A DNA stretch of 64,000 bases from Methylobacterium sp. (GTDB lineage: Bacteria; Pseudomonadota; Alphaproteobacteria; Rhizobiales; Beijerinckiaceae). Below the pieces are notes generated by a model, which did no database searches, was not told the origin of the DNA, and saw nothing but the letters and a program-made list of their open reading frames with translations. The stretch covers positions 1 through 64,000 of the forward strand of contig PNLY01000010.1 in NCBI GenBank assembly GCA_013823325.1, read 5' to 3'. Position numbers and translations under genes: made by a program. Below, one piece after another: positions 40,943 through 62,715 of this stretch. Numbering within the stretch: the stretch's first letter is position 1; every line of letters begins with the position of its first letter.

Positions 40943-40944
40943 CG

Positions 40945-44436: not shown

Positions 44437-44662
44437 TTCTTGCGGCTTCCTGGGCTCGCCACGTGTTCTCGTCGAGCACGTCGATGGCGTCGTTCATCTC
44501 GGCAACGTCGAACAGAGTGAGCGTGCCATCCACGAGATCGGCATAGCGGCACAGACCCCTCAAGACCGGCCGCATCACGTAATCCTTGCCGTCCGGTAGC
44601 GCGACCGCGTCGTATTTCAGGCCGGGCTGCCGACGGTCAAACTCGACGCCAGCCCGTCGAAA
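44426..44662 (-). CDS. Tail assembly chaperone, -1 frame extension (DUF6889-like)
   Basis: A segment open in the -1 frame from the slippery site, 78 codons. It carries RPVLRGLCRYADLVDGTLTLFDVAEMNDAIDVLDEN, the DUF6889-type sequence. It can be made in two ways: as the C-terminal part of a 207-residue fusion with the gene at 44617 by -1 frameshift, or separately from the ATG at 44575 with AAGGA seven bases upstream. The fusion is the usual scheme for tail chaperones (lambda G and GT). Confidence 0.75.
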   Translation of the reverse strand, partial: FRRAGVEFDRRQPGLKYDAVALPDGKDYVMRPVLRGLCRYADLVDGTLTLFDVAEMNDAIDVLDENTWRAQEAARNGR

Positions 44663-45048: not shown

Positions 45049-45049
45049 G

Positions 45050-45511: not shown

Positions 45512-45523
45512 TGCGGCCCCCGG

Positions 45524-47323: not shown

Positions 47324-47326
47324 CGG

Positions 47327-47911: not shown

Positions 47912-47923
47912 TGCGGCCTCGGA

Positions 47924-48292
47924 TCAGCGCGGGGCGAGCAGTCGGCAGGTGGCGCAGGTGAAGCCGGCCCCGTAGCGCGAATAATCGTCGACGGTCACGA
48001 CGGTGTAGCGCCGGCCGTTCCAGGTCACGATATCGGCGTCGAGCCCCTCACCGCCCTCGGTGAAACGGAAGGTCGAGTGCATCAGGATTGAGCCGGTCGA
48101 GATCGCGGCCTCCGGGTTGCGCTGGAGGTTGCGGCCCTTGTCAGAGGTCACGACGACCGAGATCGCCGTCTCCGTCATGGCCTCGACCGTGCGCCCAGTC
48201 AGTGGATCGACCGTCACCGTCGCGCGAGCCACGGTTGCGGCGTCCGCAAACATGGGGTCCGACAAGAGGTCTGAAACGTCGAGGAAGGGCAT
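47924..48292 (-). CDS. Head-closure-region protein
   Basis: A 122-residue protein (ARATVTVDPLTGRTVEAMTETAI, DIVTWNGRRYTVVTVDDYSRYGAGFTCATCRLL). The length and place between the gp10-like and terminator genes fit a head-closure or connector component. It carries a CxxC near the end. The family itself is not firmly recognised. Confidence 0.65.
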   Translation of the reverse strand: MPFLDVSDLLSDPMFADAATVARATVTVDPLTGRTVEAMTETAISVVVTSDKGRNLQRNPEAAISTGSILMHSTFRFTEGGEGLDADIVTWNGRRYTVVTVDDYSRYGAGFTCATCRLLAPR

Positions 48293-48774
48293 CAGCTGCC
48301 TTTCTTGCGGACCACATGCGTCACGGCTCGCCGAAGCTGGCCCGTGTCGATCAGCGGTCGCTCGCCGGTCCTGCCCTTCGCCCGGCGCTTCTGGAGCGTC
48401 TTCGGCGACAGCGGCGTGAACGGGCCATCGGTGATCTTGGCTTTGACGGCATTCGCCGCGACGAAGCCGGCCCGGTCGAAATCGCGGTCGATCGTCGCGA
48501 CCTTTCCTTCCAGGGCCGAAAGGCCAGCCGCCTTCAGGTGCGGAATGAACTGCTTGCTGGCGCCATCGACGCCCGGGACAAGGAACGGTCGCTCCGGGAT
48601 GTTCTGCGCCGGCGATCCGGTTTCCATCAGGTATCCGATCTCGGCATTGTTGATCGGCGTGTCGTCCCGGCCCGCGGTCGTCGACGGAATGCCGACCAGA
48701 ACCTCTTTCGAGGTCAGCGCCTTGACGGACTTGAGGACGTCAGCGACGCGATCCTTGACGACCCGAAGGCTCAT
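48292..48774 (-). CDS. HK97 gp10-like connector/tail-completion protein
   Basis: A 160-residue protein started at the ATG at 48774, in an ATGA overlap with the previous stop. LVGIPSTTAGRDDTPINNAEIGYLMETGSPAQNIPERPFLVPGV and the C-terminal SPKTLQKRRAKGRTGERPLIDTGQLRRAVTHVVRK are motifs shared with the HK97-gp10/virion morphogenesis group. It probably completes the tail-head joint. Confidence 0.75.
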   Translation of the reverse strand: MSLRVVKDRVADVLKSVKALTSKEVLVGIPSTTAGRDDTPINNAEIGYLMETGSPAQNIPERPFLVPGVDGASKQFIPHLKAAGLSALEGKVATIDRDFDRAGFVAANAVKAKITDGPFTPLSPKTLQKRRAKGRTGERPLIDTGQLRRAVTHVVRKKGS

Positions 48775-49163
48775 AGCTGCCACCCGCCGGAGCCGAACAT
48801 GCGGACCAGCTGAAGGAACTGCACGCCGTAGACGGTCGCGTTCCAATGGCCCGCACCCGCATCCAACGTCGTGCTTCCGGCGTCGTAGGAGACGGACACC
48901 TTGTCGACCGTCTTCGATGTCGTGACGCCGGTGTTGGCGCCTGGGCTTCCACCAGCGGCAGACGCTTTGACAGCCTGCGCCGCAAGCGCAATGTGATGGG
49001 CCGCAAACAGCTCCAGGCCGTGGTCGAGCATGTCCTCCCAGCGGTCAGGGCGCAGCAGCTTCGCCCCGATGCCCAGCCAGTAGTTGACCGTGGCATCGGG
49101 GTAGATCGAAGCGCTGGCGAACTCTGGAAAGTTCGTGCGGAAGCTGCCTGGCGTGACGGTCAC
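48771..49163 (-). CDS. DUF4054 head-tail connector protein
   Basis: A 130-residue protein. FRTNFPEFASASIYPDATVNYWLGIGAKLL at the N-terminus and LELFAAHHIALAAQAVKA are the DUF4054 signature, a head-tail connector of phages with DUF2184 capsids. The overlap with the gene before it points to coupled translation. Confidence 0.82.
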   Translation of the reverse strand: MTVTPGSFRTNFPEFASASIYPDATVNYWLGIGAKLLRPDRWEDMLDHGLELFAAHHIALAAQAVKASAAGGSPGANTGVTTSKTVDKVSVSYDAGSTTLDAGAGHWNATVYGVQFLQLVRMFGSGGWQL

Positions 49164-49495
49164 TTGCCGGCCTTCGCCTCGGCTTCCGCCTCCTCGACGA
49201 GCTTGGTCACCTCGTCATCGGACAGGCCGGAGCTGTCGTCGAGGCCGACAGCCTTGGCGCGATCGGCAAGCGTGGGCTCGTCGGCCTTCTTGCCCTTCTT
49301 GCCCTTGCCGGCCGTTTCGTCGGCGGCCTTCAGATCGACGATCGAGCAGCCCGAGGCCTTCGCATACCAATGGTGCGCGACGTCGCCGGGCACATCGTGG
49401 TTGAGCCCGACCTTGAGCCGGTGGACCGTGCCGTCGTTCAGGGTGATGTCGACCTGGACGGGCGTCGAGACGATGAAGCTCTCGATCTTGCTCAT
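49160..49495 (-). CDS. Hypothetical phage head-region protein
   Basis: A 111-residue protein directly after the capsid gene. The first half is beta-like (VQVDITLNDGTVHRLKVGLNHDV); the rest is Lys- and Glu-rich (KGKKGKKADEP, VTKLVEEAEAEAKAGK) and may resemble a Rho-N or HeH-type tail. Likely a minor capsid or connector part. Not firmly recognised. Confidence 0.6.
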   Translation of the reverse strand: MSKIESFIVSTPVQVDITLNDGTVHRLKVGLNHDVPGDVAHHWYAKASGCSIVDLKAADETAGKGKKGKKADEPTLADRAKAVGLDDSSGLSDDEVTKLVEEAEAEAKAGK

Positions 49496-49498
49496 GGC

Positions 49499-50548
49499 TC
49501 AGATCCCATCCCGGTACGCGACGGTTTCGGGGTAGACGAACTCGACGACGCCGAGCCGGCCGAAATAGGTAACCAGCTGGCGCAGGTCCCGGTATTCCAG
49601 CGGGGTGCGCTGGAGCGGCACCATCGGGAAGCGGACGAAGTGCTCCGCCTGGCTATACGCCACCATGCGGTCGCTCGGCCCGGCGCCGCGCCCGGTCAGC
49701 CACTTCACCGGCTGGATATCGAGCGGCCGCCCGGTCTGCGCCATCGTCAGGGAGTTTTCCTTCAGATAGGTCAAGATCGACTTGTCCGCCGCCGACGAAA
49801 CCAGCTGGCCGTTGATGTAGGCGAACTTGAGGGGCGGCAGGAGCAGCTTCGTCGGGACAACCGCGAAGCCGCTCGCCTGCCAGGCAGCGCTCAGCATATC
49901 GTTGACGTCGCGCAGGATCTGGGTCGGCGTCTTGTTGGCCCAGAGCGTCGAGCTGCCACCACCGCCGGCGCCGTCGGCCGCCACATTGGACGGGGTGATC
50001 AGCCCAGTGGAGTTGACGAGGCCGGTGAAGCCGAGCTCGGAGTCGCCGATATAGACCTGCTCGTCGATATCCATGTTGTGCTTCAGGACCATGCCCGAAT
50101 ACTTCTGGGTGTCGACGGGACGTCCGACCTTCTGCGCGCTCTCCAGCTCGGGGATCGTCCAGCCGATCTGCATGGCCCACAGGTTCAGCGGGTTGGCGGT
50201 CTTGCCGATGTCCAGCGCCAGCGAGGCGATGGCCGAGGCATCCTTGCCGATCCAGGCCTTGCCGGTCGGGGTCAGGCCGCCGATCGCCGCGAAGGTCGAA
50301 TTGGTGAAGGACGAGACCTCGTCCGCGATCGAGACGTCCGAGCGCAGATCGATGTCGCGCGACCACGAGAACGAAACCAGGGGCTCATGCAGCGTCTGGT
50401 CGAGACGCTCGAGCTCGCCGATGACGAAGGCACCAGCGCTGTCGATGGTGGCGCGGTCGAAGGTGACCGCGTCCTGAAAGCGCACTCGCTTCAGGATGGC
50501 CGGGGCCGCCAGCGGCGCGCCGAGGCCGGGAAGGATGATCGTGTTCAT
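49499..50548 (-). CDS. Major capsid protein (DUF2184)
   Basis: A 349-residue protein starting at the ATG at 50548. It follows the DUF2184 pattern of HK97-fold major capsid proteins: VSFSWSRDIDLRSDV, WAMQIGWTIPELESAQKVGRP, YSGMVLKHNMDIDEQVYIGDSELGFTGLVN, TQILRDVNDMLSAAWQAS. The length is typical. It lies after the cement gene and before the connector genes. Confidence 0.88.
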   Translation of the reverse strand: MNTIILPGLGAPLAAPAILKRVRFQDAVTFDRATIDSAGAFVIGELERLDQTLHEPLVSFSWSRDIDLRSDVSIADEVSSFTNSTFAAIGGLTPTGKAWIGKDASAIASLALDIGKTANPLNLWAMQIGWTIPELESAQKVGRPVDTQKYSGMVLKHNMDIDEQVYIGDSELGFTGLVNSTGLITPSNVAADGAGGGGSSTLWANKTPTQILRDVNDMLSAAWQASGFAVVPTKLLLPPLKFAYINGQLVSSAADKSILTYLKENSLTMAQTGRPLDIQPVKWLTGRGAGPSDRMVAYSQAEHFVRFPMVPLQRTPLEYRDLRQLVTYFGRLGVVEFVYPETVAYRDGI

Positions 50549-50564
50549 GATCTCTCTGGCCCCG

Positions 50565-51047
50565 TCAGATGTTGAAGCGGATTTCGACGTTGCCGCTCGC
50601 GTCGGCACCGCCCATGAAGATGCAGTTCGGGACCGCGACGCACTTCGCGGAATCGGCCGCCGTCTCGATGTCGCCGACGAGCTTGCCGGTATCGGCCGTG
50701 ACGCGGACGTAGACCTGGCCGCCCTTGGCAGCCGTGCCCTGCGCGAGCTTGACGGTCATGTAGCCGCGCACGACAACGTCACAGAGCCCGGACGCCGGCG
50801 GGGTGGCCGTGCCCAGCGCCTCGTTGGCGGCGTTCGTCGGGTACGGGCGCTGGAGCAGGCCGTAGACGACGGTGGCGGCGTCGCCCGAGGCAATCGGCTG
50901 GACCTTGCCGGAGACGATCTTGACGAACACGCCGTACTTGGTCGGAGGCGTGCCGCTATCGATCTGCTGGGGCTCGGTGGTGGAGTTGGAAGGACGGGTG
51001 ACATCACCCGCGATGCCGGAGGGCATCCGATAGAGAAAGGCGACCAT
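50565..51047 (-). CDS. Capsid cement/decoration protein
   Basis: A 160-residue protein with small beta-rich repeats (KYGVFVKIVSGKVQPIASGDAATVVYGLLQRPYPT, GLCDVVVRGYMTVKLAQGTAAKGGQVYVRV). This is the Gp24-like structural cement family that sits between the DUF2213 and DUF2184 genes. It stabilises the expanded capsid. Confidence 0.82.
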   Translation of the reverse strand: MVAFLYRMPSGIAGDVTRPSNSTTEPQQIDSGTPPTKYGVFVKIVSGKVQPIASGDAATVVYGLLQRPYPTNAANEALGTATPPASGLCDVVVRGYMTVKLAQGTAAKGGQVYVRVTADTGKLVGDIETAADSAKCVAVPNCIFMGGADASGNVEIRFNI

Positions 51048-51059
51048 GTCGGATGCTCC

Positions 51060-52304
51060 TCAGCTGGCCTGTTTTGGGTTCCAGAACGCCCGGTTTTTGG
51101 CGTTCAGGTCGGCGGTCTTGACGGGTGCGCGCCCGAAGTCCTGGGTGGTGACACCGGGGCGGACGCCACCGGCGTTGTTCTTGGCGCGCATCAGCTCCGA
51201 GGCGCCGACGAAGACGGTCTGAAGCGCGGCCGGGTCCATCGTGTCGAAGGTGGCTTCGGCGCCGCCGAGGAAGGGCTCGATCGCCTGCTTGCCGGCGTCG
51301 GTGGCGTAGGCCGTAGCGAGCGCCTTGCGCTGGCAGGAGCAGACCGCCGCGTCCATCGCCTTGGCCGTGGCCTTGGCGTCGGTGGTCGGCAGGCGCAGTC
51401 CAGGCGCGATGATCTCGGCGCGGGCAACGGCGTCGCGGAAGCGCTTCGCAGCGGCATCCTTGGTCTTGCCGTCATCCTCGTCATCGTCGTCGCTGTCCTC
51501 GGTCTTGCACTCCTCGTCTTCCTTGTCGGAATCCTTGGTGGCGAGGGCGGCGACCTTGGCGTCGAGCGCCGCGATCGACTTGGTCAGCGTGTCCAGCACG
51601 GCCGAGTCGATGGTCAGCTTGACCACGCTGTCGCCGGTCTTGGCCTTCTCGTCTTCGTCGTCCTCGTCGGCATCGGAGGTCGGGGCCTCTTTCAGGGCCT
51701 CCTCCATCGCCGCCTCATCCTTCGACTTAAAGGCGCTGCGGACCCGATCCAGCCACGTCGGCTTCTTGGCCATGTTTTCGTCTCCGATTGCACACCGCGA
51801 ACCGCACCGGCCCATGGCCACAAGCGCTACGTGGTTGGCGATGATGTTCCGCTGAACCCCGCGGCCGGGCTCGATCTGCTCGTAATCGGCCTCGTACCCA
51901 GCCGAGACCTCGCGAATGTCGTCGTCGGTCACGAGCTTGATGGCGTCGCGACCAGTGATCAGGAGATCGGCAAGGATCACATCCTGATCGAGGCCGGCCC
52001 CGGCCCGTGGGTTTAGGACGATGCCCTTCGACAGCGCGTGCCAGTTGTCCGGCCCGACGAACTCGGAAGGGTGGTCGATCGTCACCGGCTTCCCGGCGAA
52101 CGACGCAACGGTCTCCTCGCGAAAGACCTCTTCGGCCGGCCGGTCGATGAAAATCTCTCCGACCATGTTGGCGTCGACCGGGACCTCGTAGGCCGCATAG
52201 ATCTGCTGGCCGACGCGCGCGATGGGCACGTCATGGCAGACCAGGAAGCCTTCAGGAGTGAGCGACCGCTTCGCTCCCAGCTGCGCTGTGGTGAAAAACC
52301 TCAT
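51060..52304 (-). CDS. DUF2213 head maturation/scaffold protein
   Basis: A 414-residue protein starting MRFFTTAQLGAKRSLTPEG; an upstream start would add 14 residues inside the previous gene. Residues 1-180 are DUF2213: IDHPSEFVGPDNW and EVSAGYEADYE with VALVAMGRCGSRCAI. The DUF2213 domain is thought to be the prohead protease. Residues about 190-330 are highly acidic and charged (DEDDEDEKAKTGD, DSDDDDEDDGKTKD) like a scaffold. The start overlaps the Mu-F-like gene by four bases. Confidence 0.85.
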   Translation of the reverse strand: MRFFTTAQLGAKRSLTPEGFLVCHDVPIARVGQQIYAAYEVPVDANMVGEIFIDRPAEEVFREETVASFAGKPVTIDHPSEFVGPDNWHALSKGIVLNPRAGAGLDQDVILADLLITGRDAIKLVTDDDIREVSAGYEADYEQIEPGRGVQRNIIANHVALVAMGRCGSRCAIGDENMAKKPTWLDRVRSAFKSKDEAAMEEALKEAPTSDADEDDEDEKAKTGDSVVKLTIDSAVLDTLTKSIAALDAKVAALATKDSDKEDEECKTEDSDDDDEDDGKTKDAAAKRFRDAVARAEIIAPGLRLPTTDAKATAKAMDAAVCSCQRKALATAYATDAGKQAIEPFLGGAEATFDTMDPAALQTVFVGASELMRAKNNAGGVRPGVTTQDFGRAPVKTADLNAKNRAFWNPKQAS

Positions 52305-53068
52305 AGGTCCGCTTCCGGGATGACTGGCTCGGCGTAACAACGACAATTCGGTAGCGCGCCGGCGTGACCCGTCATCCCGTCGAGCTCTGGCGGCTCGTCC
52401 CAGGCGACGAAGCGGCCTTCCATCTTTCGGTGCGAAGGGCGGACATCGCTGTCGCGGGAGGTCCGCCAGATATACCCCACGCTCCCGACCGCTTCGGCCC
52501 TGGCCATCGTGAGCATTGAGGATGCCCGGCCGACTTCCGTCCTCGCGATCAGGTTGGCCCGTGCTTTCGTGACATCGCCCGTTCGCATGATCTCGCGGGC
52601 GATCTCATCGGCGCGGGCGCCTGTCTCCTGCCCCTTGATCACCAGATTGTGGACACGCTCGGCGGCCTTGACCGGCAGGCTCTTGATGAGCCCGACCTGT
52701 TCGGCCATAGCGGACTTCATGACCTCGCCGACCGGCGTATGCCGGATGATGCGCCCGATCTCGGCGCCCATCTCCTGCGAGGCCTTCATCCAGGCGCGCT
52801 CATCACGCGCCGCCACATCCGTCAACATCCGGCGGGCGACAGACTTCGCCCAACCATCGATCAGGTCGGCGTAGCGGTTGAGAGCACTGCGAAGCGAGGC
52901 CTCGTTGCCGCCATCGATAAAGCCGAAGCCGGAGATGATGTCCGCGACGACGCGCGCCACCTTACGCAGCTGGCTCGCATACGCCTTTTCAGCCTTCCGG
53001 CTCCGGACCCACTCCGACCGGCTCGACCTTGTCCTTGTCTCCCGATCGTAGGTCAGCCGCTTCAGCAT
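52301..53068 (-). CDS. Mu gpF/SPP1 gp7-like head morphogenesis protein
   Basis: A 255-residue protein. The N-terminal half is helical. The C-terminal half holds the Mu-F motif: MRTGDVTKARANLIARTEVGRASSMLTMARAE and DSDVRPSHRKMEGRFVAWDEPP, with CRCYAEP at the end. It sits on the portal and is packaged as a minor head protein. Its first 80 bases overlap the end of the portal gene. Confidence 0.88.
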   Translation of the reverse strand: MLKRLTYDRETRTRSSRSEWVRSRKAEKAYASQLRKVARVVADIISGFGFIDGGNEASLRSALNRYADLIDGWAKSVARRMLTDVAARDERAWMKASQEMGAEIGRIIRHTPVGEVMKSAMAEQVGLIKSLPVKAAERVHNLVIKGQETGARADEIAREIMRTGDVTKARANLIARTEVGRASSMLTMARAEAVGSVGYIWRTSRDSDVRPSHRKMEGRFVAWDEPPELDGMTGHAGALPNCRCYAEPVIPEADL

Positions 53069-54431
53069 CGGGCATCATCTCGCTCGGATCAGGCGGCAAC
53101 TCGTCCGCGGCCTTGATCTCTTCGTCGCTGATCCCGGACCAGATGCCGGTGACGTCGGCCGACTGGCGAAGCTCGTTCAGCGCGGTCTTGTCGCTGACAA
53201 GGCCGGCTTCCTGCGCCGAGAGGACCGTCCTCGTGGTGATCTCCGCGACCTCAGCCTTCTCCTTGTCGGAGAGCTGCCAGAGGGACTCGAACTCGAAGGA
53301 GAAATTCTCCGGCGGGTCCTCACCGAGGATCGACCGATAGGCCACATCCAGAACGCGCCCGAGCGGGATGCGCAGGGTGCTTTCCTGCTTCTGGGTCACG
53401 CCGTCGTAATATGTGCGAAGGTCGCTCTCGCCCGTCGAATTCAGCCCGGCCGGGCTTTGGCCGAAGAGGCGGACCAGCGGGATTTGCAAGGCGCCCGACA
53501 GCTGCTGACCGAACTGGAGCAGGACATCGGACAGACCCGAGAACGAATAGGCGTGGGTCTCGAATTTGTCGGTGGAGTCGAGCAGGGTCAGCCCCTCGTT
53601 CGACTGCATCGAGCGGATCAGGTCGACTTGTTTCAGCACCGCCTCGAAGGGCTTGCCGCCGATCGCGATCAGCTCCCGAAGCTTCTCGATCGAATAGGTG
53701 CGCAGATGAGCCTTGTAGACGAGTTGGGCAGCGCCCTGGCTGGTGCTGTCGTATGCGACCAGCTGGTCATAGATCCGCTCTGCGACGCTCTGGCCCCAGC
53801 CGTTTTCTGCGATGCGCTGCTGGTAGGGGAGCCGGACACCTTCGAGCCTGACTATCCGGGTGTGGTGCACCCGCTCGCCGGATAGCGGCAGCCACGGGTT
53901 GGGGAGGATGTCGTAGCTCTCTGGCTGGCCCATCTCCGGGCCGTATTCCTCGATCATGTTGACGACGGAAGGCTGGATCATCCAGCGGTCCAGCACCATC
54001 AGACCCTTGAACTGGCCGGGCGCGATCGTCTCTGGGCGGAGCCGGGTTGCGGGTTTCTGCCCGTCGATCAGCATGACCGCGATGCAGCCCCCATAGAGGC
54101 GAGCCCACTTCACGGTCTCCTCGAGCGAACGCCAGACGCCGAGGTCGCGCATGCCGGCCTGGAGCCGGTCGATCTTCTCGGCGTCGTCCACGCCCTTGAT
54201 GTCCACGCCGGCGCGGGTCATGTCCTCCGCGACAACGTCGACCGCCTGCCCGATGATCCAACTGGTGCGATACATCGCCTCAAGCAGGATGCGGTTACGG
54301 CTGATGAAGTTGTTGTGATAGGTCGACTGGCTGAACTGGTTTCCGGCGCCATATCCGAGACGGGCCTGAAAGTTGACGAAGCCGTCAGCAGTCAGCGCCC
54401 GCGACGGGACGCGGATGCGAGGCTTGGTCAT
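52989..54431 (-). CDS. Portal protein (DUF1073)
   Basis: A 480-residue protein. SRNRILLEAMYRTSWIIGQAVDVVAEDMTRAGVDI at the N-terminus, WARLYGGCIAVMLIDGQ, LMVLDRWMI and IPLVRLFGQSPAGLNSTGESDLRTYYDGVTQKQE are the DUF1073 portal pattern. It forms the dodecamer at the capsid vertex through which DNA is packaged. Databases sometimes label this family as anti-CBASS Acb1; the full length, the head-gene context and the motifs support portal. The last part overlaps the gene downstream. Confidence 0.9.
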   Translation of the reverse strand: MTKPRIRVPSRALTADGFVNFQARLGYGAGNQFSQSTYHNNFISRNRILLEAMYRTSWIIGQAVDVVAEDMTRAGVDIKGVDDAEKIDRLQAGMRDLGVWRSLEETVKWARLYGGCIAVMLIDGQKPATRLRPETIAPGQFKGLMVLDRWMIQPSVVNMIEEYGPEMGQPESYDILPNPWLPLSGERVHHTRIVRLEGVRLPYQQRIAENGWGQSVAERIYDQLVAYDSTSQGAAQLVYKAHLRTYSIEKLRELIAIGGKPFEAVLKQVDLIRSMQSNEGLTLLDSTDKFETHAYSFSGLSDVLLQFGQQLSGALQIPLVRLFGQSPAGLNSTGESDLRTYYDGVTQKQESTLRIPLGRVLDVAYRSILGEDPPENFSFEFESLWQLSDKEKAEVAEITTRTVLSAQEAGLVSDKTALNELRQSADVTGIWSGISDEEIKAADELPPDPSEMMPDAEAADLRSGDKDKVEPVGVGPEPEG

Positions 54432-54437
54432 GTTCTG

Positions 54438-55656
54438 TCAGCCTGCGAGTTTCGACCACACCCCGAGGCCGCCGCGGGCCTGAATGTATCCGTCCAGCCC
54501 ATAGCGGACGGCGTCGATGCCATGGTTCCATTTGTCGACGATGATCGGCAGGATATCGCCGGTGACCTTGTCGACCTTGTACGCGTAGAGCCTGAATTCC
54601 TGGGCGAGATGAACGCAGCGCTCGTGCACGACGATGCGCTTGAAGCCCTTCATGTGCGCGATGCCGTCTTCGACGCTGCCCGGCCATTTCTCGGCGGCTT
54701 CGATATTGAAGCCCTGCCGGCGCATGTAGCTGATCGTCTCGGGCCGGGCGCTGTCAGCCTTGATGGGCCACTGCCGGGCGCCGGGGACGCTGTCGAAGAG
54801 CTGCGGCGTCTCGTCGATCTCCACCCCGTGGCCATACGCCTCGTGCGAGATGAACAGCGTCTCGTCATCGAGCCAGAACCTGACCAGCGTGGTCGGATCG
54901 TTTGCAAAGCCCCAGTCGGCGCCGAAGAATATCCGCGTGCCCTCTGGCGGGTCATCGAACGTCTCGACCGAAACCCGGCGCCGGAAAATGACCGCCTCCG
55001 AGATGGTGACGTAGCCGCCGTTCCAGACGTGCTCGAAATCGTCCGGGTTGCGGCCCTGATCCGTCAGCATCTCCTTGCGGAGCACGTCCGGGAAGAACGG
55101 GTTGTCGCGCCAGTTGGCCTGGACGACAGTCGCCTCGGGCGCCGGTATGCAGTTCTCGCCTCGCAGCAGCTTGTCGACAGGGTCGTCGGGGCTGCTAGGG
55201 TTCCATGTGAACCACAACTCTGACCCGGGCTTGCGGATCGTCGGGCGAAGCAGCTTCAGGCTGTGCGCCGACAGCGACTGCGCTTCCTCGACCCAGGCTC
55301 CGTCATACCCTTCCAGCGACTTGATCGAGTCCGCGGTATGGTTCTGCATGCCCTGGAATATGATCAGCCCGTCGCCGGGTGTCTTGATCTCCACCTTCTG
55401 GACCTCGAACTTTCGTCCGACGCCGAGCGCTTCAATCTTGTCCTCGATCAGCCGCTTGACCGACTGCTCAAGGCTCTTCTGGACCTCGCGGATGCAGACC
55501 CAGCGAAGGCCAGGCTGCATCAGTGCGCGCTCGACGAGCGCCTCGGCAAAGAAATGCGACTTGCCGGAGCCTTCGTCCCCCCCATGCGCCCTTGTAGCGC
55601 GCCGGCGCTAGCAAGGGCACGAAGACGCGAGGCGTGGGGATGTCTAAGCAACTCAC
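54438..55656 (-). CDS. Terminase large subunit, interrupted by a frameshift
   Basis: The DNA-packaging motor. A GTG at 55656 starts MSCLDIPTPRVFVPLLAPARYKG (the usual N-terminus of this family), then at a run of seven G (55577-55583 on the plus strand as C) the zero frame leaves the conserved sequence. The Walker A GSGKSHFFAE and all later parts (CIREVQKSLEQSVKRL, Walker B-like AWVEEAQ, FFGADWGFANDPTT nuclease motif) follow in another frame. With six G the reading frame would be continuous and the spacing from RYKGA to GSGKS would match the family. As written the gene is split; the downstream piece has an open frame from 55520. Confidence 0.88.
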
Positions 55657-56321
55657 CGCCTGTGGTCCTCCGGGCTAAATGCTGCCTCTGGAGCCCAGCC
55701 CCGCGATAAGCGATACCTGACCTTCGAAGGCTCTATGCCGAACTGATCGCACCATGCCTGCAACGTCTTGGAGTCGCCGCCTATCGTGATGATCCTGTTC
55801 GACCTCTTGTTATTGGCCTGCGTCTTGGCCTCTGCCCATCGGCAGTTGCTGGGCTCGTAGTTGCCGCCGTTCTCGATGCGGTCGATTGTGTGACCGTCTG
55901 GCCGGTTGCCCATATCAGCGTAGAACGCCGCGAAATCATCCCATCTGCTGCAAACCGCGATACCGCGACCGCCATAGTCGGCGTAGTCGGTATCGTTGGG
56001 GTTAGAGCAACGCGCCCGCATATCCTTCCAGCTTCGATATTCTCGCGGCTGTCGGCGCGAAAGACCGTGCGTCGAGTTACGGTTGACTATGGCCTCTGTA
56101 TGAAGGCACCCGCAAGATGCTGTGTGACCAGACCGGGCAGACTTAATCCTCACATCCTTGATTCTGCCGCAATCGCACCTGAACCGCCACAAATGGTTGT
56201 TCTGTGACGATTCCCTCTCAATCAAGGAAAGAGCCACAAGGCGACCAAAGCGTTGCCCCTCATAGTCTTTGATAGACCTGTTGCGCTGGCGCCCCGGCAA
56301 AATCTCTGTCTTAATAACCAT
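55653..56321 (-). CDS. HNH endonuclease (homing-type) between the terminase genes
   Basis: A 222-residue protein. Residues 15-75 have a Zn-binding-like part (FRCDCGRIKDVRIKS, HTASCGCLHTEAI). Residues about 85-165 are the HNH-like unit with HGLSRRQPREYRSWKDMRARC and DYADYGGRGIAVCSRWDDFAAFYADMGNRPDGHTIDRIENGGNYEPSNCRWAEA, the plan of phage HNH endonucleases of the HNH-AP2 kind. The last 45 residues look DNA-binding. It lies between terS and terL and overlaps the GTG of terL, as mobile endonucleases often do. Confidence 0.85.
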   Translation of the reverse strand: MVIKTEILPGRQRNRSIKDYEGQRFGRLVALSLIERESSQNNHLWRFRCDCGRIKDVRIKSARSGHTASCGCLHTEAIVNRNSTHGLSRRQPREYRSWKDMRARCSNPNDTDYADYGGRGIAVCSRWDDFAAFYADMGNRPDGHTIDRIENGGNYEPSNCRWAEAKTQANNKRSNRIITIGGDSKTLQAWCDQFGIEPSKVRYRLSRGWAPEAAFSPEDHRR

Positions 56322-56359
56322 TGAAAGCCCTCTTTTGGACCTTCATAAGGTACCTCATA

Positions 56360-56845
56360 TCAAGCGGAATGGCCACCCTCTCCGTCTGAATTTCGAGGGT
56401 CGACGATGACACGGCGGATCGCCTCAACTTGCACCGGGCCGCCGTCGGCGCCGCTCAGCTCGACCTGATGCTTGTCGCTGTACTTCTTCGGCTGAAGCTT
56501 GCCGGCCATCCATTTGCGGGCTTCGACGCGAAGGGCCGACCGCCGAAGCGCCTCGCCATTCTCGCGCCAGCCAATGTTCTCGCCCTCGTCGTTCTTCCGC
56601 TCCATCCAATCGTTCGTGCCGTCGTCGGCAATCTCGAGGATTTCGTCGAAGAGCGCGTCGGCCTGAGCTTCGCGCGCACGGGCGTACTGATCCGAGAATG
56701 GCTTGTTCTCATTCAGCCACTTGAAGACCGTGCTGGTGGCCGGCATCCCTTCATCCGCACAAATCGACCGAAGGCTGTGGCCGTCGGCGATGCGCTCGCA
56801 GATGAGATCGGCAACTGCCTGGGTGAACTCGGACTGGCGAGCCAT
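56360..56845 (-). CDS. Terminase small subunit
   Basis: A 161-residue protein. It opens MARQSEFTQAVADLICERIADGHSLRSICADEGMPATSTVFKWLNEN, a helix-turn-helix of the terminase small-subunit type, then FSDQYARAREAQADALFDEILEIADDGTND and LRVEARKWMAGKLQPKKYSDKHQVELSG. It recognises phage DNA and recruits the large subunit. It is the first gene after the terminator at 56870-56897. Confidence 0.88.
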   Translation of the reverse strand: MARQSEFTQAVADLICERIADGHSLRSICADEGMPATSTVFKWLNENKPFSDQYARAREAQADALFDEILEIADDGTNDWMERKNDEGENIGWRENGEALRRSALRVEARKWMAGKLQPKKYSDKHQVELSGADGGPVQVEAIRRVIVDPRNSDGEGGHSA

Positions 56846-57315: not shown

Positions 57316-57996
57316 TCAGGCAGCGCGCAATGAAGCAAGCGTCAGCGTGGCTTGAACCTTTCTCCCGAACGCCTCGATCAGCACCTTGGCTTCATCCAGG
57401 CCGATGCAGTCCACGATTGTCGCCTGTAGCCGCATGAACGGCCCTTCAATGATGGTTGCAGCATCGCCGCGGCTGAATGGTGCCTTCGGCTGTTCTGGCT
57501 TCGGCGCTTTGATTCCGTTCTGGTAATCGGCGATCGCGCGCAGGGCGGCGGCCGGCACGCGCACCCAGCCATTGCTGTCTGAAACGATCGCTTGGACACC
57601 GTCGATGTCGAAGACGCTGCCAATGGGTTTGCCCTTGACGATGAAGCGCTGAGGCTCGGCTTCACCGGCGAGTAGCGGGCCTGTGGCGAACAGATATCGC
57701 GGGAAGGTCGCGATATCGGCGTCGAACGTGGTGCGCTTGCCGACAGTGACGGTCTTGTGCTCGCTGGGCCAGAACACCGAACATCCGGCCTCCTCAAGCC
57801 CGGCTTGAGCACGCGCCTCGCCGCGCGGAGAGGTGAAGATCAGAAACCATTTCGTCTTGGGCCGAAGATCGAGCTCGGGTGCTGGATTCAGCTTCCGGAT
57901 CTCGCGACGCTCGCCCGGCTCAGGCGGCTGCGCCGCTGCCTTTGCGGCTGCTTTGGCCCATCGATCCTGGCGCCGGTTGCTGTTCGACTTGGCCAT
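57316..57996 (-). CDS. NusG-like transcription (anti)termination factor
   Basis: A 226-residue protein started at MAKSNSNRRQDRWAK. Residues about 45-125 look like an NGN domain (KTKWFLIFTSPRGEARAQAGLEEAGCSVFWPSEH, ATFPRYLFATG). Residues about 178-225 (APFSRGDAATIIEGPFMRLQATIVDCIG) form a KOW domain. NusG-family proteins bind the clamp helices of RNA polymerase. The gene is next to a terminator that separates early and late genes, so an antiterminator of the late operon is a reasonable guess. Confidence 0.8.
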   Translation of the reverse strand: MAKSNSNRRQDRWAKAAAKAAAQPPEPGERREIRKLNPAPELDLRPKTKWFLIFTSPRGEARAQAGLEEAGCSVFWPSEHKTVTVGKRTTFDADIATFPRYLFATGPLLAGEAEPQRFIVKGKPIGSVFDIDGVQAIVSDSNGWVRVPAAALRAIADYQNGIKAPKPEQPKAPFSRGDAATIIEGPFMRLQATIVDCIGLDEAKVLIEAFGRKVQATLTLASLRAA

Positions 57997-58010
57997 CGGA
58001 GAATGCTCGG

Positions 58011-58880
58011 TCAGTGGTGGACTTGCGCGGCGAAATACCAGCCGTCGGCTTGCTGCTCGGGGTAGAACTTGCAGAGGCCTGGCTTGTGGCCGGCCTTGAC
58101 CCTGGCGAACCATTCCTCGGTGTCGCGCTTGACGAATATCTGCTCGGGACGGTCGGACATGGCCGCGACGGCGTAGTCGTTCCACCGCTCCTGGTTGAGC
58201 CAGGTTACGGCCTGAGCACATTTCTCGGTGCCAGCGCGCCCTGCCCTGCGCTCGATCTCGGCGAAGCGCTTGGCGCCGGCGATGATGGCCGCCGGTTCGG
58301 CCCCGCGCTTCACGGCCCGTTCGAACTTCTCCTTGGCCGGTTTCTTCGGATCCGAGGCCTCGCCGCGATGGGGATAGGCCTTCCAGAATTCATCGAAATC
58401 CGCATCCGGCGCTGGTCGCGTCGGCTTGCCGACCGACCGAACGTTGGTCGTAGAGCTCTTGGATTCAGGATTGGGTTCTTTCTTCCCTTCCCTATCCTCT
58501 CCTAATAGCTCTGCGTCCGCTGAGCGTTCGTTGAGCGGACGTTCAGCGTTCGCTTGACGGGCTGCGACCGATGCGCGAGCGGAGGCCTTTGCCTTGGCGG
58601 ACTTTTGCTGAGCGACCGCGATTTCTTGGTCTATGCGGGCGTGTCGCCAATCGTCGCCATCGATATCGAAGAACTCTTCGAGGGTCGGCTTGGCGGCCGC
58701 CCACTCGGCATCAGTCATGCGGGCGATGCGCGCGAGCTTTCGATCGTCAGCCGGCAGCGGCTTCTCCCGCTGCCAGTAATTCATGATCAGCATGAGATAG
58801 GCGCCGTGCTCGGCCGCGCTGAGGTGCGCGGTGTCGGCGAGATAATCGGCGACGAAAAGCGGCATGTACGGGGCACTCAC
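58011..58880 (-). CDS. DUF1376 replication-associated phage protein
   Basis: A 289-residue protein from a GTG at 58880, with GGAGG seven bases upstream, in a GTGA overlap with the previous stop. MPLFVADYLADTAHLSAAEHGAYLMLIMNYWQREKPLPADDRKLARIARMTDAEW is the DUF1376 domain, found in phage genes close to replication functions. The middle is low-complexity and charged; the C-terminal part has FWKAYPHRGEASDPKKPAKEKFERAVKRGA, typical of phage replication initiator-like proteins. Confidence 0.82.
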   Translation of the reverse strand: MSAPYMPLFVADYLADTAHLSAAEHGAYLMLIMNYWQREKPLPADDRKLARIARMTDAEWAAAKPTLEEFFDIDGDDWRHARIDQEIAVAQQKSAKAKASARASVAARQANAERPLNERSADAELLGEDREGKKEPNPESKSSTTNVRSVGKPTRPAPDADFDEFWKAYPHRGEASDPKKPAKEKFERAVKRGAEPAAIIAGAKRFAEIERRAGRAGTEKCAQAVTWLNQERWNDYAVAAMSDRPEQIFVKRDTEEWFARVKAGHKPGLCKFYPEQQADGWYFAAQVHH

Positions 58881-59086
58881 CGCAGCGCCTCCAACTCTTC
58901 GACCTTGAGCGCGACAGACCAGCCGACGGGACCGCCGTCGAGCTCGACATAGATGCGGTCTAGACCGCAGGGGCGGCCGCGGTAAGCGCGTTGGATCGTG
59001 CCGTGCTTGCCGGCGTGCTCGCCTGCGATGACGCGGACGCGGGCGCCTTGGGAGAGAGGATCGGGTTGGAGAGCGGCGCGGGTCAT
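58877..59086 (-). CDS. Small KOW-like phage protein
   Basis: A 69-residue protein starting MTRAALQPDPLSQGARVRVI. ARVRVIAGEHAGKHGTIQRAYRG reads as a KOW-like beta motif. It overlaps the DUF1376 gene by four bases. Function unknown; RNA or ribosome/RNAP contact is possible. Confidence 0.65.
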   Translation of the reverse strand: MTRAALQPDPLSQGARVRVIAGEHAGKHGTIQRAYRGRPCGLDRIYVELDGGPVGWSVALKVEELEALR

Positions 59087-60312
59087 GCGACCTCCCCGAA
59101 CAGTGGTCCGAGGTCCTGTGGCTTGTCCGCGATCTTCGCCTTGATGGACTCGCGGGCGCGTTCATCGGGGCCGGCCATCGCGAGCTTCATTCTGCGGGCT
59201 ATATCGGCCTGATAGGCTTCCTCGCGCTCGACCAGCACAGCACGGAAGCCCTCCCGGAAGGCCGCCTCGCCCGTCGTGCCGGTGCCGGCGAAGGGATCGA
59301 GAACGGTGCCGCCCGGCGGCGTCACCAGCCGGCAGAGCCATTGCATCAGGTCCACCGGCTTTACCGTCGGATGCTTCGAGCCGACCCGGTCATTGGCATC
59401 GGCCTTGGAACTATAGAAGAATCGTGCTGCAGACCCGCTATCACCCCGCGGTTCAGCCCGTCCGGCTCTGGACGGCATGTCGCCATAGACATTCGCGAAC
59501 GGTGACGAAGGCTCGTTGCCAGTGACGACGCCCTGCTGACCAGCAGATTCTGGGAAAGCCGACACGACCTCATCGCTGCCGTCGTGGAGAATGTTGGCAG
59601 GCCAGCGGCCAGGCTTCATTTCGCCGTGGTAAAGCGGCCCATCCCCTTCCGGCTTCCAGGTCCCGCCCTCCTTGTCGAGAGTGGCCCCGGGCTTGAAGCG
59701 CTTGATCGTATAGGCGCCACCTTGCGCATCGTCCGCGTGGACGCGGCATCCGTCGATGTTCAGCGCTCCCGTGCCGTGCTGGTGCACGGTCTGTGCGACG
59801 GTGCCGGAGAGGGACTTGCGAGCCAGAACGATAGGCTCCCAAGCCGGCTTTAGGGCCGTGCCCCAACCCGCCCAGTCGCCTTTTTGATTGTGAGACTTCG
59901 GGAACCCGGAGCCGTAAACCCATGCGAGTTGGTCGCGGATTTCGAAGCCCGCGTCTTCGATCGCGCAGACCATCCGGTGGTAAGTCCTCGTGCCGGAGAA
60001 GGCGACGCAGTGACCTCCGGGTTTGAGAACACGCAGCACATCTTCCCAGAACTCAGCGGCGAAGGCTGTCTCGCCAGTGTCCCATCTTTGACCCATGAAC
60101 CCGCGGCCCGTCCGGCCATAGGGGTTCTCGGCGTTCTCTGTCCGCTCGCTGCGTGGCGAATTCGCGAAGCGCTTCACGATTGAAACCAGGGCATAGGGCG
60201 GGTCAGTGACGACAGAGTCGATAGAGGCATCGGCGAGGCCGCGCAGCACCTCCCTGCAATCTCCAGGATGCAGCACCACGCGGCCGTCAAGAAAGGAACG
60301 AGGCTTGCTCAC
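59083..60312 (-). CDS. DNA methyltransferase (beta-class, N6-adenine or N4-cytosine)
   Basis: A 409-residue protein from a GTG at 60312. The catalytic motif IV DPPY lies at 37-40 and the SAM motif I FAGTGTT at 341-347, so the order is IV before I, the beta class that contains CcrM. Between them is a long insert with WPANILHDGSDEV and HPTVKPVDLMQWLCRLV, as in many phage methyltransferases. The target site is unknown. The start overlaps the gene before by four bases. It could protect phage DNA or alter its reading by methylation-sensitive regulators. Confidence 0.9.
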   Translation of the reverse strand: MSKPRSFLDGRVVLHPGDCREVLRGLADASIDSVVTDPPYALVSIVKRFANSPRSERTENAENPYGRTGRGFMGQRWDTGETAFAAEFWEDVLRVLKPGGHCVAFSGTRTYHRMVCAIEDAGFEIRDQLAWVYGSGFPKSHNQKGDWAGWGTALKPAWEPIVLARKSLSGTVAQTVHQHGTGALNIDGCRVHADDAQGGAYTIKRFKPGATLDKEGGTWKPEGDGPLYHGEMKPGRWPANILHDGSDEVVSAFPESAGQQGVVTGNEPSSPFANVYGDMPSRAGRAEPRGDSGSAARFFYSSKADANDRVGSKHPTVKPVDLMQWLCRLVTPPGGTVLDPFAGTGTTGEAAFREGFRAVLVEREEAYQADIARRMKLAMAGPDERARESIKAKIADKPQDLGPLFGEVA

Positions 60313-60563
60313 GCCGCCCTCTTCCGTTCCTGCTCGCGAGCCGAGGCGATACCGTTGGCCGCAGCAGCCGGCGTGCATTCGAGGCGCCAAGCGATATCGA
60401 CGTTGTCGAGGCCGGATCGGAACAGCGCGAGCGCGGCGGAGGCGCCGAACTCATCGAGCTCTTCGTCTCGGACCGTGCGCCCATGGCCGACCAGCATCAG
60501 CGGCCGGACGCCACAGTCGAGTTTGAGCGGGCGAAGGCTGAGGTTGACGCCGTGCGCGATCAT
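60309..60563 (-). CDS. Small hypothetical phage protein
   Basis: An 84-residue protein from the ATG at 60563, in an ATGA overlap with the gene upstream and a GTGA overlap with the methyltransferase. It has DNVDIAWRLECTPAAAANGIASAREQERK, which could be a helix-turn-helix. Its place between the GcrA-like and methyltransferase genes is notable. Confidence 0.6.
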   Translation of the reverse strand: MIAHGVNLSLRPLKLDCGVRPLMLVGHGRTVRDEELDEFGASAALALFRSGLDNVDIAWRLECTPAAAANGIASAREQERKRAA

Positions 60564-61123
60564 GCGGCCCTCCTGATGAGGCGTTTGAAGTTCAGCCGGC
60601 GGTCGGTGTCGCGGGTGAGCTCTCGCGAGGAGCTGAGCCCCTGGCAGTGAGAGCAATAGGAGCCGTTTTCGAGGGCGGGTAGCCCGCAGAAGAACTTCTC
60701 CGAAAACGGGGCGTTCGTCGGCCAGAGCGGCCACCGGCAGAGGCCGTCGGCGATCTGGAAATAGGACAAGGCCTTCGGCTGCCAGACCGCAGCCACGAGG
60801 ACCGGATCCGGCTTCGGCTGCTCGGCCAGGGCCACCACAGGAGCAAGTGCCGGAATCGGAACCGGGGCCAGCTGCGGCGTAGGCGCCTTCGGATCAGTCT
60901 TGGCCTGTCGCGGGATGGCGGCAGAGCTTGTCGCCCGCGCACCGCCGCCGATCTTGCGCCGATGCCGATAGACGACCCCAGCAACAACGCCTCTCTGGAT
61001 GGCGAACTCCTCCGCGATCCGGGTGTAGCTCTTGCCCGCAAGCGCCGCCTGGACAATGGCGAGCTTAATGGCCTCGGGATTGCGGTTCTGTGCGACCGCA
61101 AGCAGCCGGACAGTCCGGCTCAT
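60560..61123 (-). CDS. GcrA-like cell-cycle regulator homologue
   Basis: A 187-residue protein. Residues 15-58 are a helix-turn-helix-like part ([23 protein letters not shown], then [12 protein letters not shown]) like GcrA. After an Ala/Pro linker, residues 125-162 have [27 protein letters not shown], the Cys-rich signature (C129, C146, C157, C160) seen in GcrA-family proteins. Caulobacter GcrA works with sigma-70 and methylated GANTC sites. The phage copy sits beside a DNA methyltransferase. Confidence 0.8.
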
Positions 61124-61365
61124 GGCGCCTCTCCGACCGCCTGGAGGTACAGGTCGAGGATCGCTTCCTCTTCTTTGCGCTCGTCGAGATCGCGCTTGCG
61201 CAGTGCGATGACCTTGCGCAGCACCTTGACGTCGTAGCCACTGGCCTTGGCCTCGGAATAGACCTCGCCGATATCGTCGGAGATGGTCTGTTTCTCTTCC
61301 TCAAGCCGCTCGATGCGCTGCACGATGCTCGTGAGCTGATCGCCTTGAACCAGATCTTCCATCAC
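61120..61365 (-). CDS. GapR-like protein (DUF2312)
   Basis: An 81-residue protein. [62 protein letters not shown] is an almost full DUF2312 domain, the fold of GapR, which binds overtwisted AT-rich DNA ahead of the fork in alphaproteobacteria. The host has its own copy elsewhere, so this is a phage paralogue. It overlaps the GcrA-like gene by four bases. Confidence 0.9.
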
Positions 61366-61712
61366 TCTCGCTCCATCAGTTTCCGCGCCGTCGCCAGCGC
61401 CGTTTCAATCTCGCCCACCGCAGACAGACGAGGGTCCGCGCCAGTTGCGCGAAGGCAGGCCAGCTCGTGTTCGAGCGCCGAAATTTCATGTTCAATCTCG
61501 CGGATGAGCAGGGTCTCAGCGCGGGCGCGTAGCCAGTCGTCGATGCGCTTGAGGCGGCCACGCGCCAGCGTCTCCAGCGTCCCCGGCACCGTGCCGAGGC
61601 GATGGGCAAGCCGCTGGCGCGCGACGGAGAGCGACCCGGAACGCCGGGTCTCCCTGAGCTCCAGCCGCGCGATGATGTCGCGGCTCTGGTCCCGAAACTC
61701 TACGCTGGACAT
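61362..61712 (-). CDS. Hypothetical helical phage protein
   Basis: A 116-residue protein starting [20 protein letters not shown]. It is helical and basic, with [32 protein letters not shown]. It overlaps the GapR gene by four bases and so belongs to the early operon. Not recognised; no clear ribosome site before the start. Confidence 0.6.
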
Positions 61713-61995: not shown

Positions 61996-62220
61996 TCACG
62001 CGGCCTCGGTCTTGGGGGCGGGCTTGGCGCCGAAAATCTCTGGGAGCAGATCATGGCGCGAAATGCCGGTAGTCCGCTCGATCTCGACGACCAAGCGCGG
62101 CGACGGCCGGCGCCTCCCCTTCTCCAAGTCGTGGAGATAGCCGGGGCTCGTGCCGATCTTGGCGGCCATCCCCTGCAGCGTCAGCTCGTTGCGAGCGCGG
62201 TATAGATGAAGTGGCGACAT
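61996..62220 (-). CDS. Cro-like XRE repressor
   Basis: A 74-residue protein starting at MSPLHLYRARNELTLQGMA; a start six codons upstream falls inside the operator palindrome and is less likely. RNELTLQGMAAKIGTSPGYLHDLEKGRRRPSPRLVVEIERTTGI is a complete XRE helix-turn-helix. The gene is divergent from the second repressor and heads the lytic operon, as Cro does. Confidence 0.82.
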   Translation of the reverse strand: MSPLHLYRARNELTLQGMAAKIGTSPGYLHDLEKGRRRPSPRLVVEIERTTGISRHDLLPEIFGAKPAPKTEAA

Positions 62221-62228
62221 GAGAGAAT

Positions 62229-62245
62229 GTTCGCACATGGCGAAC
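62229..62245. promoter_or_regulatory. Operator 1 of the divergent repressor region
   Basis: GTTCGC-ACATG-GCGAAC is a perfect 17-bp palindrome around five central bases. It lies between the Cro-like gene and the second repressor and would overlap the promoter of the lytic operon. Confidence 0.75.
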
Positions 62246-62254
62246 GCGACCGCA

Positions 62255-62260
62255 AGTCAA
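62255..62260 (-). promoter_or_regulatory. Candidate -35 element of the leftward (lytic) promoter
   Basis: On the minus strand TTGACT at 62260-62255 is a good -35 box. Seventeen bases further lies operator 1, which would cover a poor -10. Promoter activity is an inference. Confidence 0.45.
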
Positions 62261-62262
62261 AA

Positions 62263-62280
62263 GTTCGCAAATGGCGTGAC
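62263..62280. promoter_or_regulatory. Operator 2 of the divergent repressor region (imperfect)
   Basis: GTTCGC-AAATG-GCG is a copy of operator 1 with the right half partly changed (GCGTGAC). Its start is 34 bp from that of operator 1. A half-site GCGAAC is seen again at 62296-62301. Confidence 0.6.
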
Positions 62281-62313
62281 GCGGAATCGCGGCCAGCGAA
62301 CTACTATCTGGCC

Positions 62314-62715
62314 ATGGATTTTGACGACGAATTCTTCCTGGGCGCGAAGCTCAAAATCTGGCGCAAATCCAGAGGGCTGACGCTTGAGCAGATGGCCGCC
62401 GATATAGGCACGTCGAAAGGCTACCTATCGGATATGGAGAGGGACAAGCGCCCTCTCACGTCGCGCTGGCTTGCGAAGGTTGCCGGGGTCTACGGGACCA
62501 AGGTTTCAGAAATCATCGGGGCTCCTCCGCCGTCTGCCGACCCCGGCGACGACGAAGAGCGAATGGCGAAGCAGATCCTTCGATTGAAGGGGCTTGGGAA
62601 GATCGACAAGGTTCGATGGTATCTGGATCTGCTCGAAGCAGAAGCTCAAAGTGCGCCATCGCCTTCTGACGAAGATGCCACGGCAGCGCGGCAAAGCGCG
62701 AAATCAGGTCGATAA
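62314..62715 (+). CDS. CI-like XRE repressor
   Basis: A 133-residue protein from the ATG at 62314 (MDFDDEFFLGAKLKIWRKSR). Residues 10-65 are an XRE helix-turn-helix (LTLEQMAADIGTSKGYLSDMERDKRPLTSRWLAKVAGVYG). The rest is helical with no protease fold, so it does not self-cleave like lambda CI. It is divergent from the Cro-like gene across two operators. No clear ribosome site precedes the ATG, and TACTAT at 62302-62307 would be a near -10, so it may be translated from a leaderless mRNA. Confidence 0.8.
   Translation: MDFDDEFFLGAKLKIWRKSRGLTLEQMAADIGTSKGYLSDMERDKRPLTSRWLAKVAGVYGTKVSEIIGAPPPSADPGDDEERMAKQILRLKGLGKIDKVRWYLDLLEAEAQSAPSPSDEDATAARQSAKSGR

Follow-up and report, generated by a model that had tools for sequence, protein, structure and literature searches.

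A phage-type GcrA-like regulator with a retained sigma-domain frame, encoded beside GapR in the early operon of a Methylobacterium prophage

The window analysed in this study, 64,000 nucleotides from the start of contig PNLY01000010.1 of Methylobacterium sp. (assembly GCA_013823325.1), contains a contractile-tailed prophage (a temperate myovirus) whose early block is an operon with genes for a GapR protein, a GcrA-like regulator and a DNA methyltransferase. The GcrA-like protein retains the frame of a sigma-interaction-type domain while its DNA-reading half is divergent. Moreover, the early cassette is real and conserved, and the GapR-GcrA neighbourhood recurs in other phages. The explanation that we favour, with slightly better than even confidence, is that the protein would be a sigma70-tethered phage regulator with its own DNA specificity, produced beside a GapR serving replication and a self-protecting methyltransferase.

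The assignment of the 187-residue protein to the GcrA family, proposed in the initial annotation, was borne out by the profile search suggested there, in which it passed the PF07750 cut-off (5.9e-9, 36.9 bits versus 26.9), and by phmmer matches to Caulobacter GcrA (7ye1, 1.7e-4; 5yix, 0.12). The protein did not reach the cut-off of the NCBIfam GcrA equivalog, which describes the cell-cycle sigma70 cofactor (29.4 bits versus 280). It comprises a divergent helix-turn-helix (HTH) at about residues 15-60, a linker and a sigma-interaction-type domain at about residues 115-165 (CRWPLW...SEKFFCG...YCSHC), in which three cysteines and CRWP are retained, cysteine replaces histidine at the fourth position and tryptophan replaces glycine. 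On profiles of presumed host GcrA proteins, the DNA-binding half (DBD) scored 8.2 bits (host median 105.2) and the sigma-interacting half (SID) 26.3 bits (host median 105.8). The host set consisted of 54 rows, namely L049-L101, the loci of the best-scoring matches ranked below the phage ones, plus L004; their host status is presumed, and L089, L096 and L100 were kept untrimmed at the start motif. The window protein keeps 6 of the 13 recognition-helix columns conserved in these rows and differs at 7, a count that depends on the alignment, which places two extra residues there. These columns and the 8.2-bit DBD score speak against the earlier suggestion that the module acts through the GcrA-CcrM mark. 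Besides, the window protein, its Pam5 relative and L102 share an alternative recognition-helix pattern (~xVAGxxxRxRRxG), present in part in L034. For all four, the host DBD profile gave 7-13 bits and the host SID profile 26-50 bits.

The window protein belongs to a phage GcrA subfamily for which we coined the label "PLW type". The subfamily was represented by 18 loci once duplicates of a prophage, recognised by agreement in coordinates and lengths, had been dropped (for example, L006, L033, L044 and L103 for L007; L046 and L105 for L036; L112 for L041; L009 for L010). Ten of them are the window and nine loci with proteins similar to its own, and the other eight were found through patterns, one of which contained CRWPLW; L133, found from the GapR side, is an additional PLW protein outside the 18. 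The alignment and identity figures use nine of the ten proteins (L010 was left out). Three cysteines are present in all 54 host and 9 phage rows, and the phage rows keep CRWP or CRMP. The fourth position is histidine in 54/54 host rows and cysteine in 9/9 phage rows, and the residue after CRWPx is glycine in 98% of the host rows and tryptophan in 9/9 phage rows; this tryptophan is found in all 18 loci of the wider set, in part owing to the search pattern. Mean pairwise identity among host rows was 0.84 for the DBD, 0.98 for the recognition helix and 0.70 for the SID, and among phage rows 0.32, 0.46 and 0.43, respectively. The SID score exceeded the DBD score in 12 of 16 PLW rows and also in 4/4 phiCbK-like or GDP-type rows.

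In a maximum-likelihood tree of 53 rows (27 of the 54 host rows, 16 PLW rows with three SID-only proteins omitted and L133 added, and 10 other phage rows), the 16 PLW rows stood together to one side of a branch with support of 92/74 that recurred in 93% of the bootstrap trees. The host rows formed their own group (89/90); support was moderate because many of the end branches are long. Given this separation of PLW and host rows, we rejected the idea that the phage had recently acquired its GcrA-like gene from a host. A search of 397 genomes of the family returned six matches above 150 bits, all in the same genus, the next match reaching 100 bits, with a model built from those same six matches. 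At E up to 1e-4, 18 of 67 genomes of the genus gave a match, and these matches include host-type GcrA (L042, L043). The relatives of the window protein are found in same-genus prophages and in phages Pam5 and JY07/JY25. GcrA-family proteins were also present in L008, L010 and L114, phages recorded from Pseudanabaena, Microcystis and Synechococcus, whose real hosts may be alphaproteobacteria living in the cultures.

The domain composition of the subfamily varies. Three proteins consist of the SID only (L010, 75 residues according to the depositors' annotation; L109, 102 residues; L111, 81 residues), and they match PF07750 over profile positions 96-150 only, with 22.6-24.9 bits, just under the cut-off of 26.9; L137 resembles them by eye. 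The L110 protein (PF07750, 97.7 bits) shows by eye two HTH-like stretches, a sigma domain and a third HTH-like stretch. In that locus, positions 4153-6831 hold GapR, the three-HTH GcrA protein and an MT-A70 methyltransferase inside 2.7 kb.

The neighbouring small protein, 80 residues from the ATG at 61362 or 81 from a GTG at 61365, is GapR, in agreement with the initial annotation: it carries a full-length PF10073 domain (3.1e-31, 107.2 bits; cut-off 22.6) and matches the crystal chain 6cfx in phmmer (1.5e-34), the 6cfx sequence agreeing by eye with the copy on contig C12 of the same-genus genome G011 and not with the copy in viral record L127. It satisfies the NCBIfam subfamily PRK13694 (109.8 bits; cut-off 94) and does not reach the GapR equivalog cut-off (99.7 bits versus 140). 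Unlike the GcrA-like protein, which is not host-like, the window GapR is host-like, with 85% identity to the copy on contig C56 of the same genome (dN 0.09, dS 0.48). Further GapR genes of this genome lie on C56 and C8, and a GcrA gene lies on C132 (194 bits). The C8 gene (L039, 9359-9670) stands near open reading frames (ORFs) weakly matching Cro- and CII-like genes, and perhaps belongs to a second prophage with its own GapR. Among phages, the JY07/JY25 GapR is 83.5% identical to that of the window, and GapR relatives were detected in 146 of 50,697 INPHARED phage records (E up to 1e-3).

The genes of the prophage, their strands and the evidence for each assignment are as follows.

35603..56845, minus strand: packaging and virion genes (PHROGs for nine proteins of the stretch)
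57316..58221, minus strand: NusG-like antiterminator, real start probably within the ORF (PF02357, 1.4e-6; PHROG 6386, 6e-18)
58011..59165, minus strand: replication/primosomal protein (DUF1376), real start probably within the ORF (PF07120, 3.1e-29; PHROG 9327, 4.7e-44)
58877..59086, minus strand: KOW-domain protein of 69 residues (PF00467, 6.7e-6)
59083..60312, minus strand: beta-class DNA methyltransferase of 409 residues (PF01555, 1.3e-26; PHROG 67, 2.7e-69; motif order)
60309..60563, minus strand: short ORF, protein of 84 residues (63% identical to an L036 protein)
60560..61123, minus strand: GcrA-like regulator of 187 residues (PF07750, 36.9 bits; 7ye1, 1.7e-4; alignment, domain scores and tree)
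61120..61362, minus strand: GapR (UPF0335/DUF2312; PF10073, 107.2 bits; 6cfx, 1.5e-34)
61362..61712, minus strand: gene for a protein of 116 residues, its stop overlapping the GapR start (relatives in L032 and phage Pam5)
61996..62238, minus strand: XRE/Cro-like HTH gene, head of the early operon (PF01381, 7.8e-10; PF13560, 8.9e-10)
62206..62715, plus strand: CI-like gene, divergent from the Cro-like gene (PF13560, 5.4e-11)

The phage setting assumed at the outset was confirmed by the PHROGs matches, since virion genes lie on the same strand; those named comprise the terminase small subunit, portal, protease, major head, tail sheath, tape measure, baseplate and tail fibre. An integrase gene is located at L038 11459-12607, corresponding to about 71.5-72.6 kb of contig C10, and is preceded by ERF and NinB genes; therefore, the prophage continues past the window and extends from about 35.6 kb to about 72.6 kb, with approximate ends. 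The adjoining and translationally overlapped arrangement described previously is visible in the sequence, with the junctions TGATG (upstream gene/GapR), ATGA (GapR/GcrA), ATGA (GcrA/short ORF), GTGA (short ORF/methyltransferase) and ATGA (methyltransferase/KOW). Given these five overlaps, the genes from the 116-residue protein to the KOW protein are probably translated as one unit. The short ORF between the GcrA-like and methyltransferase genes proved to be genuine, as it or a relative occupies the position directly 3' of the GcrA-like gene in 7 of the 18 PLW loci, window included; its 84-residue product has an HTH-like C-terminus by eye and no NCBIfam match, and its L036 relative has no Pfam match. 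The 116-residue upstream protein matched nothing in NCBIfam or Pfam, and its relatives are found in L032 (72% identity over 140 residues of a longer ORF) and Pam5 (30% over 164 residues).

Two further observations concern other parts of the window. Beside the terminase small subunit gene, an ORF of 222 residues (55653-56321, minus strand) has by eye the look of a homing-endonuclease-type insertion, and a chrB-a cis-regulatory RNA lies outside the phage part at 9965-10048 on the minus strand (RF03078, 66.3 bits; gathering score 43.9).

The order upstream or CII-like gene, GapR, GcrA and short ORF is shared by the window, L007, L032, L034 and L036, with a 0.4-kb gap before GcrA in L036. The series continues with KOW, Rep and NusG genes in the window, in L007 and in L036, and partly in L032 and L034. 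The GcrA-like proteins of the four other loci are only 25-38% identical to that of the window, so that this common arrangement is more than chance. Their GapR proteins are longer (215-282 residues) and more divergent; therefore, the slot is conserved and its occupant varies. Across the PLW set, seven of the 18 loci have GapR as a neighbour no further than about 1.5 kb away (window, L007, L010, L032, L034, L036 and L110), L102 (17.3 bits versus the cut-off of 22.6) and L107 (other strand, 4 kb away) being left uncounted.

The neighbourhood was also evident from the GapR side. Of 513 viral loci anchored on GapR, the best 80 were examined, and 13 of these contained a GcrA-family ORF, called by our own model at E up to 1e-3, and all 13 were on the GapR strand. 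Nine of these lay within 2 kb of GapR, compared to 3.65 expected under a uniform distribution (p ~0.002), and removal of a near-copy left 8 of 12 (p ~0.005), both calculations ignoring ancestry and early-gene clustering. By eye, five of the 13 proteins have one part, being DNA-binding only (L196, L165) or sigma-type only (L137, L139, L140).

The ORF at 59083-60312 does encode a beta-class methyltransferase, with motif IV (DPPY, residue 37) preceding motif I (DPFAGTG, residue 339). CcrM is itself a beta-class enzyme. The further notion that the window enzyme forms part of the GcrA-CcrM mark found no such support: the RAMA domain is absent (PF18755, E up to 1), the NCBIfam CcrM equivalog was not reached (62.7 bits versus a cut-off of 830), and the same genome has its own RAMA-bearing ORF on C50 (68.6 bits, in a frame of 438 residues). 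A role as a CcrM mimic was rejected on the absent RAMA domain and the low equivalog score. In a padloc scan of five proteins, the methyltransferase alone was matched, mostly as Type II.

Ten of the 18 PLW loci have a methyltransferase ORF no more than about 2.1 kb from the GcrA-like gene. Nine are PF01555 enzymes (window, L007, L010, L032, L034, L035, L104, L106 and L107, the ORF of L107 starting 0.9 kb from the GcrA gene with its PF01555 part further on) and one is the MT-A70 enzyme of L110; L037 was checked for a methyltransferase with our own model alone. The enzymes found beside phage GcrA genes are of several kinds: a DPPY type in the window, L133 and L171 (50-81% identity over the matched parts), the DPPY enzyme of L007, an SPPF type in L032, L034, L035, L104, L106 and L150 (36-93%), and the enzyme of L010, which matches others over at most 83 residues. 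The SPPF motif is typical of N4-cytosine enzymes. In addition, PF01555 methyltransferases were equally frequent in GcrA-bearing and GapR-only phage records (9/25 each), a comparison in which only PF01555 was sought, so that the MT-A70 of L110 is not among the nine, and in which the 25 GapR-only records were the first longer ones listed, a non-random choice, many records being fragments. The PLW loci known from bacterial genomes only (window, L032, L034, L035 and L037) were left out, and their inclusion gives 13/30 GcrA-bearing versus 9/25 GapR-only records. This equal frequency indicates that the methyltransferase gene is frequent in phage early regions in general, with no evident partnership with GcrA. 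A link between the two, implied by the initial annotation, was thus rejected.

Of the 24 orders in which its letters can stand, GANTC is the rarest in the prophage (35600-63100), with 34 occurrences versus 91 expected from base composition, as might follow from a long history in hosts with CcrM; the host part is also poor in it (37 versus 78). A phage control region bearing GANTC was rejected as evidence, since the site closest to the operon start, at 61811, falls inside an opposite-strand ORF with DNA conserved in L032. This ORF (61793-61990, plus strand) encodes 65 residues, lies between the Cro-like and 116-residue genes, and has no Pfam match.

In the window protein, the sigma-domain frame is kept and the DNA reader is altered. 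This is most simply explained by a phage-made regulator that would grip the host sigma70 and recognise sites in phage DNA. The C-terminal domain of the GcrA-like protein would most likely bind region 2 of the host sigma70, and the re-specified N-terminal HTH would recognise phage promoters, to which the polymerase would be brought, in a step resembling the way early activators of other phages shift transcription from early to later genes. GapR most likely binds over-twisted DNA arising from phage replication and transcription, and the methyltransferase would mark phage DNA against restriction without being tied to the regulator. The Cro-, KOW-, Rep- and NusG-like genes carried by the same operon also count in favour of this explanation. 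Several results weigh against it. The SID of the window protein is only 25% identical to host SIDs, and the host medians given above are raised by having been obtained on profiles built from the 54 host rows themselves. In the wider set of 18 loci, the fourth position is cysteine in 14 and histidine in 4 (L010, L109, L110 and L111). The phage rows are fewer and more divergent than the host rows, and their recognition helix is no less alike than their SID, so that it is the whole DBD, not the helix, that is less alike than the SID. Four of the 16 PLW rows (L037, L041, L108 and L110) have a host-like DBD of 40-64 bits that exceeds the SID score, and the same relation holds in 5 of 6 non-PLW GcrA proteins from GapR-bearing phage loci; therefore, re-specified DNA reading is not general in phages. 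Finally, a sigma70 promoter scan gave one match versus a shuffled mean of 1.2, and no target promoter was found in it.

Under the cell-cycle takeover proposed in the initial annotation, the GcrA-like protein would act on methylated promoters of the host or stand in for host GcrA, and the methyltransferase would alter the methylation that GcrA reads. Takeover was also proposed by the phiCbK authors for their own GcrA (PMC3556154). The family matches are genuine, a methyltransferase accompanies GcrA in over half of the PLW loci, the three genes occur together inside about 5 kb at L133 (PLW), L150 and L171 (the last two non-PLW), and GANTC is the scarcest order in the prophage, though the host part is low too. 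Nevertheless, the seven altered recognition-helix columns, an enzyme that is not CcrM-like in a slot occupied by differing types, and the same PF01555 frequency with and without GcrA make this distinctly improbable, and takeover through methylation is the least supported of the specific proposals. The SID-only proteins L010, L109 and L111, together with the similar L137, make a serious rival of the idea that the sigma-type domain blocks the sigma70 site of host GcrA and switches host GcrA promoters off, the DNA-binding half being secondary. We regard such antagonism as unlikely here, given that 15 of the 18 PLW proteins keep an HTH-like N-terminus and that the tryptophan, and the fourth cysteine in 14 of 18, differ from the host SID, so that use of the same sigma70 site is not assured. 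It is also rather unlikely that a nucleoid protein, a transcription factor and an anti-restriction methylase merely share an early operon with no functional coupling. This would agree with the 11 PLW loci that have no clear GapR neighbour, with L036, which has GapR and GcrA yet no PF01555 methyltransferase in the viral record, and with the 7 of 9 methyltransferase-bearing GapR-only records in which that gene is about 2 kb or less from GapR (determined by hand from coordinates); the recurrence of same-strand GcrA ORFs close to GapR, estimated with ancestry ignored, argues against it.

The favoured sigma70-tethered regulator may be one form of something broader. We put forward, tentatively, the possibility that the sigma70-binding half of GcrA is a movable part in alphaproteobacterial phages, joined to re-specified DNA readers as in the window type, combined with three HTH-like stretches (L110), or used alone (L010, L109 and L111). 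Such proteins would be sigma70-appropriation factors acting on sigma region 2, often made with GapR, by which host polymerase would be gained by phage promoters at the expense of host GcrA promoters. Should the sigma domain prove movable, these proteins would help to separate the sigma contact of GcrA from its methyl-reading. Overall, the arrangement resembles a switch owned by the virus and acting on host transcription more than a duplicate of the cell-cycle circuit of the host.

Separate publications already describe GcrA, GapR and CcrM-like enzymes from phages, and the interest of the present findings lies chiefly in a GcrA subfamily specific to phages, whose sigma domain may be movable. 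There are reports of a GcrA in phage Atu_ph08 (PMC6630229), a CcrM-like methyltransferase in phiLM21 (PMC9437464, PMC12429752) and a Brevundimonas prophage operon dependent on host GcrA (PMC7987155); PMC11309003 and PMC3667746 were also drawn on. A 2025 paper on an Erythrobacter phage presents its GapR as the first known from a phage (PMC12185513), but some phage GapR records (e.g., AF448724) predate that claim, in part by a wide margin, to go by their accession style. Neither the GapR-GcrA pairing nor a phage-specific GcrA subfamily was found in the literature searched, in the portions available; a table of Sinorhizobium (S.) meliloti prophage genes lists both a UPF0335 protein and GcrA (PMC12429752).

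When compared to known systems, the GcrA homologue of phiCbK (PMC3556154) is likewise a phage-borne member of the family, and the phiCbK-like L113 and L116 differ from the window in their host-like GDP form of the sigma domain and their genomes of over 200 kb. No GapR or methyltransferase was annotated, or matched by our models, in 4-5 kb on each side of GcrA in L113 and L116. L114 and L117 share the GDP form, and our models likewise matched neither gene in the stretches examined. The window methyltransferase has the beta-class motif order and DPPY of CcrM and of CcrM-like phage enzymes, and differs from CcrM in the absent RAMA domain and in its equivalog score. Pam5 was reported as a podovirus from a cyanobacterium (PMC9382816), unlike the window prophage, and showed no GapR match in the 12 kb examined and no PF01555 methyltransferase in its record; its gp57 (L008), annotated as GcrA, is of the PLW subfamily with a short ORF after it, as in the window, and a single gene separates it from a relative of the 116-residue gene lying upstream. 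The GapR of the window shares the full-length UPF0335 domain (PF10073) with the proteins of known structure (6cfx, 6ozx and 6jyk), and is distinguished from them as a phage-encoded copy below the equivalog cut-off. Finally, the regulator itself follows the plan of GcrA from Caulobacter and other alphaproteobacteria (7ye1, 5yix), with an N-terminal HTH, a linker and a C-terminal sigma-interacting domain. In GcrA, the N-terminal half recognises methylated DNA and the C-terminal half contacts sigma2 (PMC7403470). The window protein departs from these proteins in its changed recognition helix, in CRWPLW instead of CRWPxG, in a fourth cysteine instead of histidine, and in its location in a phage early operon.

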